Source of the DNA: Paenibacillus sp. MBLB1832
Lineage (GTDB): Bacteria; Bacillota; Bacilli; Paenibacillales; NBRC-103111
Length of the DNA: 64,000 bases
Assembly (NCBI RefSeq): GCF_032271945.1
Contig: NZ_CP130319.1
Location: 4,979,001-5,043,000, forward strand
Direction: 5' to 3'
The position numbers were made by a program, and so were the translations under genes. Below are positions 17,996 to 21,071 of this stretch, piece after piece; positions within the stretch are counted from its first letter, which is position 1, and each line of letters starts with the position of its first letter. The notes beneath the pieces were generated by a model. That model searched no databases and was not told the DNA's origin. It saw nothing but the letters and a program-made list of their open reading frames with translations.

Positions 17996-18489
17996 TTTTT
18001 CTTGATAAATGGTTCGATTTCGCGACCCTCTTTATCTACATATAATTTATTTTTTCCGTCATAATAGCTCCAAACAAGATTTTCATTAATCTCAAATAGG
18101 TGGAGATTTTTAAAATTTCCGTCTGGAAGATAAACTTTATACCCTACTTTGCTTTTAATTAGATTTATAATTTCTATGTATGTTACGGGTAGTTGTTGAC
18201 GATCAATTTCTCCAGATTCACGAAATATCACAGCAAACTGGGTTCCATTGCTATCTTGAGCTACAGAAATAAAGGGGCTTCTAAAATACGGCATGGCAAC
18301 TACTTCCTTTAATTGTAGAGACGCTAATTTATTTTGATATCCTTCGGGTACATACAACGTATCTCCAGCGACAACATCTTCACTAGTATTACTCTGGCCT
18401 TCTTGATTACTGCAACCATTCAGGGTTAAGTTGATTAAAATTAAGACTACCAGTAGCATGAGGATCCCGCCTTTAAAAGGTTTTTTCAT
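17992..18489 (-). CDS. Putative lipoprotein
   Basis: 165 residues. ATG with AAGGAGG upstream. The signal sequence MKKPFKGGILMLLVVLILIN is followed by lipobox LNGC. The mature domain has no recognised motif; it is mixed alpha/beta by appearance, ending in YVDKEGREIEPFIKKN. Its stop overlaps the start of the ADP-ribosylglycohydrolase fragment by 4 bp. An insertion sequence begins about 135 bp upstream and may have displaced or modified its promoter. Confidence 0.8.
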   Translation of the reverse strand: MKKPFKGGILMLLVVLILINLTLNGCSNQEGQSNTSEDVVAGDTLYVPEGYQNKLASLQLKEVVAMPYFRSPFISVAQDSNGTQFAVIFRESGEIDRQQLPVTYIEIINLIKSKVGYKVYLPDGNFKNLHLFEINENLVWSYYDGKNKLYVDKEGREIEPFIKKN

Positions 18490-18630
18490 CGTCAGTCCCT
18501 CCTTTTTTACTTAGACGGAAAATTTCTTTTTTTGTTTCGATTCCAAAGGAATATCGGCTGAAGAAGTTGGGGGGGGCGTTTGATGCCTTTCCGTGTCCTG
18601 TTGGCGAAATAGTCGATTTTATCGACTGCT

Positions 18631-18642
18631 ATGAACGTGACA
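18631..18642. repeat. Right subterminal inverted repeat of the insertion sequence
   Basis: ATGAACGTGACA; the reverse complement recurs, with a 2-nt insertion, at 20227-20240. Confidence 0.7.
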
Positions 18643-19020
18643 AGTCAAGCCCTCGTCATTTCTCGCATTCGAAGGTAGTTGTAGAGCGCTCTGCACGGAA
18701 GCAAAATGTCAACGACGGTTGGCACACTGCTATACGTGGGTTGGATACCACAGGGTAAGCCTTTCGTCAGAAGGATGTCCGCGAACTAACTGCGCACGTT
18801 TGGGAGTCATCCCTAGTGCATATCGATTCCGTGGGTTCACCTTCATACCTATCCTTTGCCTCCGGGCACAAAGCTCTAGCGTAAGCTTGTCAAGCAGTTT
18901 CCTTGACAAGCGACTGGTAGGTAACACACTCAATACTCCCTCCAGCTTGCTGGGGGGGCGCCAAACGGCGAGTGTCGGGGTGCAGGGGGCAAGTCCCCTG
19001 CGTATCCCCTTTGGGGACGG
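18643..19020 (-). ncRNA. 3' non-coding region with candidate bridge RNA
   Basis: The G/C-rich region behind the transposase has strong hairpins near its start (for example CAGGGGACTTGCCCCCTG around 18980-19000) and no convincing gene. Read on the transposase strand, it contains AGTTAGTT (18791-18784), identical to the left flank of the element (20251-20244), and downstream ATAGCAGT (18733-18726), identical to the right end (18632-18625). The order (target guide first, donor guide second) and sense fit left-target and left-donor guides of IS110-family bridge RNAs. Right-hand guides were not identified. RNA limits are not known. Confidence 0.5.
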
Positions 19021-19026
19021 AAGGGG

Positions 19027-20142
19027 TTAAGTTGTAGCAGGTCGCTCTGAAACCATTGCAGCGGCCCATAAGAATCCGACTAACTCACGGGCTACAGCAC
19101 CGATCGCAACAGTGGCAGGCTTTCCTTTATGCACCATTCGCATATATTTGCGATGCAATCGCTCTTGAGCCCTCCAAGATATTACCTGGATTTCTGCAGG
19201 CATGCCTTCCAGTCGCTTTGCTAAATCACCTTTAATGGCAGGCTTGTGACGGTAACTCCACGCGGATTCAATGATGGATTTCCGCATTAGCTTATTTCCA
19301 GCTTTCGTCATTTTGCCACGTTTGACGGATTGACCGCTTGAATACTCACGGGGAACCAGTCCAAGATAAGCCATAAGCGGGGTAGGTGATGGAAACCGCG
19401 CAAAACTTCCGATTTCTGCGACAAGCGTAATCGCTGTAATGCGAGCTATCCCGCGCAGCGTCTGTACGAATTTGACAAGCTCTGCTTTGGTCCCGGTAGT
19501 GGCTTGTTCTAACATAGCGGTTTCTAAGCGTTGCTGCCGTTGTTCCACTTCATAAATGGCATGCAGATACTCGTTAAATGTGGTTTGCTCCGTCTTCCGC
19601 TCGAAGGTAAGTGTTCCTAACCACTTCCGATACATCTTTGTCCAACGCTTCTTCATATGGGACGGATGATGAATGTGATGTCGGAGTAAAAATTTGCCTA
19701 GTCGTTGCCTTGCGCGATGGAGGTCTTCGCGGGCATCCTCCCGTGCGCGTACCAAATCTCGAAGGGCTTCATCATCACGATCGGGGACATAAATCGATGT
19801 TAGTTCACCAGATCGATACAACTGAGCTAGTTGAAGGGCATCACGACGATCCGTCTTCACCTGATCTCCAGGACGTTTTGGTAAAAGAGACGGAGCGATA
19901 ACTTCACATTGAGCACCCATTGAAACAATCCAGCGGTAAAGTTCGTAACCAGTGGGTCCAGCTTCATAGCAAAAAGCCAGGTCTTTGGGGTCGCCAAGCT
20001 GCTTAATTAATTTGCGAATTGCACCAGGATCATGAGAGATCGCTCCGACATACCGTGGTGCATCGCGCCCTTCGTCGGCAACTGCAACTGCAATTTTTTC
20101 TTTAGACACATCTAAACCAATGTATTTTTGGCCAAACTTCAT
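19027..20142 (-). CDS. IS110-family DEDD transposase/recombinase
   Basis: 371 residues, ATG at 20142. The N-terminal RuvC-like DEDD domain shows Asp in YIGLDVSK (about 10), Glu in CYEAGP (about 60) and Asp pair in KTDRRDA (about 98/101). A coiled middle region (about 120-230) is followed by the Transposase_20 domain with LRGIARITAITLVAEIG, FPSPTPLMAYLGLVP and the AGNKLMRKSIIESAW segment containing the conserved catalytic Ser region. It appears full length with no frameshift, so the element may be active. Its partner would be the RNA encoded downstream. Confidence 0.93.
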   Translation of the reverse strand: MKFGQKYIGLDVSKEKIAVAVADEGRDAPRYVGAISHDPGAIRKLIKQLGDPKDLAFCYEAGPTGYELYRWIVSMGAQCEVIAPSLLPKRPGDQVKTDRRDALQLAQLYRSGELTSIYVPDRDDEALRDLVRAREDAREDLHRARQRLGKFLLRHHIHHPSHMKKRWTKMYRKWLGTLTFERKTEQTTFNEYLHAIYEVEQRQQRLETAMLEQATTGTKAELVKFVQTLRGIARITAITLVAEIGSFARFPSPTPLMAYLGLVPREYSSGQSVKRGKMTKAGNKLMRKSIIESAWSYRHKPAIKGDLAKRLEGMPAEIQVISWRAQERLHRKYMRMVHKGKPATVAIGAVARELVGFLWAAAMVSERPATT

Positions 20143-20226
20143 ACTAACAGCTCCTTTTTGTTTTGTAGCTCTGAAATGGTTGTCCTACTTCCATTTTCAA
20201 CCTACGAATGAAACAAAATACGGAGC

Positions 20227-20240
20227 TGTCACACGTTCAT
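20227..20240. repeat. Left subterminal inverted repeat of the insertion sequence
   Basis: TGTCACACGTTCAT; reverse complement of the right repeat at 18631-18642 with two extra bases. Confidence 0.7.
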
Positions 20241-20310
20241 CATAACTAACTCCAGAATAAATGAGGGTAAGCTTCATTTACCCAACCCCTAAACTTATAA
20301 ATTCTTATAT

Positions 20311-20355
20311 GTAATTAAAAAACTGCCCCAAGTCATTATGACCTTGGAGGCAGTT
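20311..20355 (-). terminator. Terminator behind the SLH remnant
   Basis: Stem built from AAACTGCC...CAAG and CTTG...GGCAGTTT, followed on the minus strand by TTTTTTAATT. It survives although the gene before it is degenerate. Confidence 0.8.
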
Positions 20356-20360
20356 TATTA

Positions 20361-20591
20361 CTACGATTGACTAAACAATTTGTAAATAATCGTGGCCGCT
20401 TGCGCACGCGTTGCGTTGCCCTGCGGAGCGAAGCTTCCATCCGACATGCCATCGATGATGCCCAGTTTCTGAGCGCTTGCAGACGTATTGCTGGATGTCC
20501 AAGTCAGCACATCCGTGCTCGCGGTTGCACATTTTACCCGTACATTCAAAAAATAGGTCGGCATGCTGCCTTCGCAATATAAGAAGCGCAT
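20361..20591 (-). pseudogene. Remnant of an S-layer-homology (SLH) protein C-terminus
   Basis: 76 codons. The second half (KLGIIDGMSDGSFAPQGNAT followed by RAQAATIIYKLF) is one SLH repeat, which anchors surface proteins to pyruvylated wall polymers. The first half (MRFLYCEGSMPTYF...) matches nothing, lacks a signal peptide and has no ribosome-binding site. Real SLH proteins carry three such repeats. This is the end of a lost gene, close to the insertion sequence. Confidence 0.7.
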
Positions 20592-20615
20592 GGTTCAAGC
20601 TGCCTTTCAGTAGCG

Positions 20616-21071
20616 TTATTCCTCTATTTGAAAAATCGAATCAATGATGATCGGCAGCTGCTCTCGGACCGAGACGGCGCCAAAGACAGACCTCGCGTGA
20701 ATGCCCTTCTCACCAAACACGTCTAGCATCAGATCAGAGCAGCCATTCAGCACTTTGTGATGCTCTTCGAATTCAGGGACAGCATTCACGAAGCCTTGCA
20801 GCTTCACCACGCGTTTGACACGGTCGAGAGAGCCTAATGCTTCTGCCAGTACGGCGAGAATTTCGATGCCTGCCAATCTTGCAAATTCGTAGCCTTCCGC
20901 GGTCGAATACGTTTGCCCTATTTTTCCCTTCGGCTTACCCGAGGGTCCTTTGCCAGATACAAAGAGCAGCCCATTCACCTCTACGCAATTGGCGTATCGG
21001 GCTGCGGGTTCGCTGGCTTGGGGGAGCTGGATCCCCAACTCTTTTAATCGATTAGCAATGGTCTGTTCCAT
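20616..21071 (-). CDS. RidA (YjgF/YER057c/UK114) family protein
   Basis: 151 residues. ATG with AAGGAGG 9 nt upstream, overlapping the end of the synthetase gene by 28 bp. It has VNGLLFVSGKGPS, GSLDRVKRVVKLQGFVN and GIHARSVFGAVSVREQLPIII, the Rid-fold pattern with the conserved Arg near residue 127. Canonical RidA hydrolyses reactive enamine/imine intermediates; this variant belongs to the longer YjgF-like subgroup. Tight coupling to the synthetase paralogue suggests that it processes an unstable intermediate or product of that pathway (inferred). Confidence 0.88.
   Translation of the reverse strand: MEQTIANRLKELGIQLPQASEPAARYANCVEVNGLLFVSGKGPSGKPKGKIGQTYSTAEGYEFARLAGIEILAVLAEALGSLDRVKRVVKLQGFVNAVPEFEEHHKVLNGCSDLMLDVFGEKGIHARSVFGAVSVREQLPIIIDSIFQIEE

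Follow-up and report, generated by a model that had tools for sequence, protein, structure and literature searches.

A probable RNA-guided, IS1111-type insertion sequence with four readable guides in Paenibacillus sp. MBLB1832

Introduction

A transposase gene of Paenibacillus sp. MBLB1832 is followed by a long non-coding region. The question that this locus raises is whether an RNA from that region guides the element to its target and, if so, which of its bases read the target and which read the element's own ends. The window is the whole stretch of 64,000 nucleotides that was analysed (contig NZ_CP130319.1, positions 4,979,001 to 5,043,000). All positions below refer to the window unless otherwise stated, and all features of the element are on the minus strand. 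An earlier note, made from the sequence alone, had described an IS110/IS1111-like element with two guide-like 8-mers downstream of the gene. The best explanation for the locus is an IS1111-type, RNA-guided insertion sequence with four guides in two regions, to which a probability of about 0.93 is assigned.

Relatives and sampling

Protein searches of the genus, the family, a sample of the order and further named genomes gave at least 146 loci with the transposase. A search of genome contigs with the single protein found no relatives; an alignment used as the query recovered them. Both ends were readable in 122 of the 146 loci, equal to 109 distinct insertions. Of the 24 loci left out, 21 lack the end motif and in 3 no stop codon falls within the stretch; they include all loci of D2_2 and P. 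albiflavus, where the end motif is absent. Several copies per genome of close transposase relatives without the ATGAACG end motif were seen in Paenibacillus sp. D2_2 (L098-L100, L108) and in genome G049. Copies were counted as distinct flank pairs, 108 without locus L046 and 109 with it, some sites being recorded twice. The RNA segment is present in 121 of the 122 loci. It occurs as 66 distinct sequences, which fall into 38 clusters at 80% identity, 37 of them with usable flanks; L046 is without the donor-guide pattern. Comparison among these copies and RNAs, and with repeats in the element's own genome, is the basis on which ends, core, target repeat, guides and fold are assigned below.

Twenty loci of plasmid relatives were also fetched and 16 of them read by eye. 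IS4321 was treated apart, L205 was set aside for having AC, not AG, at the expected left core, and ends or guides were not read in L200 (ISEc45) and L217. The clade is present in Bacillota and, more distantly, in Proteobacteria. In L219, from a Paenibacillus cellulosilyticus plasmid, a gene annotated as sporulation sigma factor SigE (1-593) adjoins the related element.

Element, ends and core

The stretch 18628-20247 is very probably one IS1111-type element of the IS110 family, 1620 bp long, whose guide RNA region lies downstream of the transposase gene. On the minus strand, the left flank ...TTCTGGAGTT is followed by the element start AGTTATGATGAACG (20247), and the element end ...GTTCATAGC (18628) is followed by AGTCGATAAAATCGAC. 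The earlier note was right that subterminal inverted repeats are present at both ends. The left repeat ATGAACGTG (20240-20232) and the right repeat CACGTTCAT (18639-18631), its reverse complement, form a perfect pair of 9 bp, within the 7-17 bp of the IS1111 group. The coordinates follow the IS1111 convention with a 7-nt left and a 3-nt right extension outside these repeats, the left AG included; a 3-nt right extension is part of that convention. The 7-nt left extension required in PMC11187229 is obtained by counting the left AG into the element. The element is a single copy in its own genome, where the sole other match is its left flank.

The dinucleotide common to both junctions is AG. AGT is repeated at the window copy, so that GT and AG cannot be distinguished from that copy alone. 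The core was set to AG, not GT, on the basis of the junctions of 109 distinct copies of the group. The left junction is AG in 109 of 109, and the right junction is AG in 78, AA in 29, GA in 1 and AT in 1. A left AG accompanies the right AA in 29 of 29 copies. GT, the core dinucleotide supposed in the earlier note, was dropped after this family comparison. The length given there (18625-20244, 1620 bp) stands, and its position is shifted by 3 nt. The inverted repeats, which had been placed 4 nt inside both ends, are separated from the core AG by 5 nt at the left end and by 3 nt at the right. In L085, L065, L037 and L091 the right junction misfits guide or core; these may be products of recombination, deletion or decay.

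Transposase

The gene at 19027-20142 encodes a transposase of 371 aa with both domains that mark the IS110 family, the RuvC-like DEDD_Tnp_IS110 (PF01548, E 2.4e-17) and Transposase_20 (PF02371, E 1.3e-21). NCBIfam NF033542, 'IS110 family RNA-guided transposase', is matched with 239 bits against a cut-off of 140. The catalytic DEDD residues D11, E60, D98 and D101 are invariant in 12 relatives; their correspondence to D11, E60, D102 and D105 of IS621 is by domain position, not by structure. The motif G-x-x-P-x4-S-G (S241 in IS621) is present. At its serine position, 269, 9 of the 12 relatives have S and the other 3 have T, and all 12 have S at the neighbouring position 268. SG or TG at the place of the catalytic serine is described in PMC11187229. 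A sequence search of the PDB with the clade profile gave remote matches to IS621, ISCro4 and one more IS110-type entry, and to nothing else.

The protein is 43% identical to that of ISEc45 over 364 aa and 25% identical, over 301 aligned positions, to that of IS4321, a named IS1111 member, and is longer than the 330-350 aa expected. In a tree with IS4321 as outgroup, the branch of IS4321 is too long for the clade to be placed relative to IS1111. By anatomy, the tested IS1111 features are found: the subterminal inverted repeats, a long non-coding region with the guide RNA downstream of the gene, and a right guide that stands 5' of the left one in both loops. Domains and anatomy thus agree with the earlier description as IS110/IS1111-like, and the covarying RNA downstream of the gene fits the IS1111 subgroup, as had been proposed.

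Target repeat and flanks

The target is a palindromic repeat. AGTT and the core AG (20246-20251) form its left half with the core, and AGTCGATAAAATCGAC (18612-18627), an arm of the palindrome, its right half. The evidence comes from paralogous repeat copies within the same genome, where uninterrupted GTTAGTCGATAAAATCGACTAAC-like copies of both sides exist, and these also support the ends of the element. A candidate target site would read AGTTAGTCGAT. At up to 3 mismatches there are 23 further matches to the target repeat in the genome and 0 for the reversed pattern. Among the 46 strand-sites of these 23 matches, 13 agree fully with the left guide (6/6) and with five right-guide bases (5/5). 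Some of the palindromes form tandem arrays, repeating about every 52 bp, at genome positions G000:C1:453884-454220 and 1371137-1371368 (L002, L177-L183). In front of the L002 array lies a repeat with 85% identity to the one upstream of the window site, so that this array serves as a paralogous empty site.

The left flank at 20258-20320 is a genus-wide repeat of about 58 bp (TAAATAAGGGGTAAGCTTCGC type), which stands in tandem in some genomes, e.g. G008 and G003. A 76-aa open reading frame at 20361-20591 (minus strand) adjoins this flank and may be the truncated end of an S-layer-homology-type domain protein.

Three genomes that hold 13 of the 29 AA copies (G371, G228 and G364) were searched for uninterrupted targets. 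AA is the core of these targets at 99 of the 100 listed places (out of 267) in G371, at 18 of 20 places in G228, and at every one of the 23 exact matches in G364; a few places there with one mismatch have AG. The reversed patterns gave 9, 8 and 35 matches, respectively, the 35 in G364 comparing with 110 at up to 1 mismatch. For the remaining AA copies the target core was read off the right junction and would likewise be AA. The relatives in these three genomes target large repeat families. In G371 there are 267 copies of TCTARCGGTTG, many of them close pairs in opposite orientation, REP-like.

Fold of the guide RNA

The guide RNA region was modelled at 18691-18870 by a covariation fold. Covariation was used because folding of the own sequence is uninformative: the window RNA 18692-18871 folded alone is not more stable than its shuffles (z -0.95), and in its fold of lowest energy some of the left donor guide is paired. 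Alignment A2 contains the 38 cluster representatives of the 66 distinct RNAs, with the window RNA as the first row. RNAalifold on these 38 leaves all four guides in loops, among them both 8-mers of the earlier note, as expected there for guides. In the named structure (RNAalifold plus two further helices and one further pair), 91.7% of cells are paired, and 26 of the 32 pairs show double-sided change (165 cells). On each of the five fold measures all 500 shuffles stayed below it, and sliding the partners by 1-3 columns lowers pairing to 33-48%. The window copy has A-C at one pair of its target stem. An Rfam scan of 18000-21000 found nothing.

Four guides

The two 8-mers from which the earlier note started, AGTTAGTT (18791-18784) and ATAGCAGT (18733-18726), are exact and match the left-flank side and the right end; each occurs once in the 387-nt region 19026-18640. 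Their joint occurrence is improbable by chance, as had been argued. In 20,000 first-order Markov sequences of this region the left 8-mer was found in 99, the right in 56 and both together in none; the pair in any of 13 registers per end was found in 25.

The first region appears to read the target. The left target guide AGTTAG (18786-18791) repeats AGTT of the left flank and the core AG, with an identity signal at 18791-18788 against the left flank of z 3.7-9.0. The 8-mer AGTTAGTT is thus a left target guide as far as AGTTAG(T) is concerned; its remainder is not target sequence. The right target guide AATCGATA (18821-18828) matches at 5/6. It pairs fully with TCGAT of the right flank and has one G-U wobble at the core, 2 of 8 bases being mismatched. 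Its complement signal at 18828-18823 against right-flank positions +8 to +3 has z 4.0-6.8, and the guide reaches the hairpin stem within about 0-1 nt.

The second region would read the joined ends. The left donor guide ATAGCAG (18727-18733) equals the right end plus the core, and position 18730 follows right-end position -2 (match 1.00 against 0.62 expected). The right donor guide CTTAC (18755-18759) was placed by complement signals and the RNA alignment. It makes 3 of 5 pairs with the left end and is degenerate compared with GCATAA or GATAA of relatives; 18759 and 18756 give signals against left-end positions +5 and +2 (z 6.1 and 5.7). Right-hand guides, which had been reported as not found, are therefore present at 18828-18821 and 18759-18755.

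In a position-free scan of well-filled RNA columns against end and flank positions, all four guides are among the top signals. The scan also lists non-guide signals that reach z 5.5, most of them against right-end positions -2, -11 and -12, and probably due to shared ancestry. A single moderate z is therefore not specific, and there are fewer informative positions behind the two donor guides than behind the target guides.

The target guides were further compared with the flanks of each copy. The left score counts the five RNA bases before AG in a fixed register. The right score uses the stretch upstream of the target hairpin against the reverse-complemented right flank, with the best of three registers taken in data and control alike. 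For permutation, flanks were swapped among clusters. Over the 37 clusters the left guide scored 3.47 of 5 (permuted 1.49, sd 0.17, largest 2.30) and the right guide 5.24 of 6 (permuted 2.64, sd 0.18, largest 3.35). By copy, the left score is 1-2 in 14, 3 in 41, 4 in 40 and 5 in 7 of the 102 copies scored, and the right score is 1-2 in 3 (L037, L065, L085), 4 in 7, 5 in 42 and 6 in 54 of 106. Related copies thus have left guides that on the whole follow their own flanks, with 14 exceptions in 102, a relation on which the earlier note had made its reading depend.

Guide extensions across the core

Both left guides continue past the core, into DNA that comes to lie beside their own site only through the exchange. 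AGTTAGTT is parsed as AGTT (target), AG (core) and TT (18784-18785), the last of which equals the element's own left end (20245-20244) and not the target. Across the RNAs the two bases after AG agree with the own left end at 0.94 and 0.97 (permuted 0.76 and 0.61) and differ from it in 5 of 66 (L035, L037, L156, L158, L160). The AA lineages have AG in the left guide, usually followed by the element's own first bases, with L158 as an exception. In the left donor guide the base after AG is T (18726), equal to the first target base right of the core (18625). This base agrees with the first right-flank base at 0.56, against 0.22 expected. Among RNAs in which it is not A, 31 of 33 have a match to the flank of at least one copy, and among those in which it is A, 6 of 33; over the 19 clusters with a non-A base the match is 0.895 (permuted 0.441).

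On a tree of 49 proteins the left-end bases +1 and +2 change five times among the 48 relatives, the tree count being 6 with one change for the undefined outgroup state. The clusters are therefore not independent for the extension test. By eye, the guide changes alongside at four of the five places (Bacillota versus Proteobacteria, the TC clade, the CT clade, and L213 versus its sister L209); L211, the fifth, does not follow. The guide changed alone in L156, L210, L212 and L214-L216. Among the 16 plasmid relatives read by eye, base +1 agrees in 14 and base +2 in 9, and of the 12 donor extensions among them that are readable and not A, only 7 match the flank. In IS4321, also read by eye, the bases of the left target guide beyond the core do not agree with the left end, a point against any rule for IS1111 elements in general; a stretch ATAGATTC there matches the right end, the core and the first flank base.

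By analogy with IS621, the 3' extensions of the left guides may act as handshake guides that pair with the DNA of the partner once strands have been exchanged. In IS621 the handshake guides lie 3' of the right guides and pair with the top strand of the partner after exchange, and the top strands are cut downstream of the core (PMC11208158). An extension of that type on the right guides is not among the top scan signals listed here, where the signal is on the left guides instead. Since the extension again follows the 3' guide, here the left one, the layout would be that of IS621 with the strands swapped. We tentatively propose, at somewhat less than even odds, that the RNA of this clade is a mirror image of that of IS621, with the handshake on the left guides and the bottom strands of target and donor cut and exchanged first. 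The bottom-strand-first reading is the simplest one for this layout, and the junctions agree with it: the left one keeps the donor core AG and the right one the target core AA in 29 of 29 copies. If the bottom strand were cut beyond the core, the left junction would end up with the donor core and the right one with the target core; the top strand of an IS621-type exchange would give the reverse arrangement. The 29 of 29 are to be read with the caveat that a heteroduplex follows second-strand exchange, and that repair, or selection for a copy that can be excised again, could favour one outcome. Searches by titles and the starts of abstracts, in a scope outside which preprints and most subscription journals lie, found no literature on IS1111 strand order, and in that same scope 'handshake' and 'IS1111' occur together only in PMC11208158.

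Circle junction and proposed mechanism

If the ends join as a circle, as reported for relatives, the junction would read CATAGC-AG-TTATGATG, and the predicted sequence across the joined ends is CATAGCAGTTATGATGAA. A -35-like box, TTGACT (18643-18648), would then be brought to 18 nt from a -10-like box, TATGAT (20239-20244), at the left end. Boxes within 3 mismatches of the consensus were found across the joined ends in all 38 cluster representatives, taking the best of spacings 16-19 and without a shuffled control. A promoter scan of the integrated form (18560-20320) found nothing above shuffles. Circle-junction promoters are reported for ISEc11 (PMC11187229) and IS621 (PMC11208158).

From published relatives the following course may be proposed. 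The junction promoter of the circle would drive the transposase gene and the RNA downstream of it, and the two products would form a ribonucleoprotein. In each guide region the right guide is the 5' one and the left guide the 3' one. The two target guides of the first region would read the halves of the palindrome around the core AG, and the two donor guides of the second would read the joined ends of the circle. The DEDD/serine recombinase would then swap strands at AG.

Alternative explanations

The reading as an RNA-guided IS1111-type element is supported by the transposase domains, by the sequence relation to the solved IS621 and ISCro4, and by guide-flank matches in 37 clusters that far exceed permutation; the copies that break the rule (14 of 102 left, 3 of 106 right) count against it. 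The target might instead be read by the protein or by the palindrome structure, the RNA matches being by-products. The targets here and in G371, G228 and G364 are indeed dispersed repeats, and a preference for repetitive palindromes is described for ISPa11 (PMC11187229) and, in a title cited in PMC11208158, for IS621. Yet guide and flank vary in concert among elements whose targets are quite different, and published IS1111 elements have been reprogrammed via their RNA (PMC11187229), which makes this explanation very improbable and already close to refuted. The window copy might also be an IS1111-type relic that inherited guides and fold and is no longer mobile, a doubtful reading but one with some weight: the element is single in its genome despite 13 of 46 fully matching strand-sites, and the right target guide, the right donor guide and one stem pair are weakened. 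The intact transposase frame of 371 aa, the intact ends and the intact circle promoter point the other way, as does L121, which stands at 8 distinct flank pairs with target guides no better than these (right 5/6; left 2-4/5 in the copies shown).

The last alternative concerns only the left-guide bases past the core, which could be a conserved stem or linker without DNA pairing, their matches reflecting shared ancestry. The few changes of left-end bases +1 and +2 would suit such an origin, as would guides that change without the end (L035, L037, L156 and L160; to AG in L210, L212 and L214-L216), ends that change without the guide (L158, L165, L211, L218), the low flank agreement in plasmid relatives and the behaviour of IS4321. 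It is nevertheless considered unlikely, since the guide changes too at four of the five left-end changes and the donor extension tracks the flank, which is not inherited with the element. In the preferred reading of an RNA-guided IS1111-type element the extensions would pair with DNA.

Comparison with known systems

For an IS1111-type clade a four-guide RNA can thus be read from sequence comparison of independent elements. If the mirror-image handshake holds, the strand order of IS1111 recombination would be directly testable, and it would tell which guide needs the extension in recombinase tools. Donor guides of IS1111 elements as such are not new, donor-binding loops having been predicted in PMC11208160. 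ISEc45, an E. coli plasmid element named so in the PLSDB annotation, has a similar donor-guide motif downstream of its gene; its ends are unreadable in the copy fetched and it is absent from the tree. The IS1111 elements with seekRNA (ISEc11, ISPa11, ISKpn4; PMC11187229) are alike in the RNA 3' of the transposase gene, the subterminal inverted repeats, the 7-nt left extension, the right (top-strand) match 5' of the left (bottom-strand) match, and the circle-junction promoter; they differ in a transposase of 330-350 aa, against 371 aa here. The Results of PMC11187229 describe target matches only, in an order reversed compared with IS110, and left-guide extensions past the core are not described in that part. 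The same paper states that mechanism specifics cannot be assumed to be equal in both families. The bridge RNA of IS621 (PMC11208160, PMC11208158) is alike in its four guides in two loops, in a core read by both guides of a loop, and in guide extensions that match the non-cognate DNA across the core. It differs in having the RNA at the other end of the element, the reverse order of guides in each loop, the extensions on the right guides, which here are on the left ones, and the core CT in place of AG.
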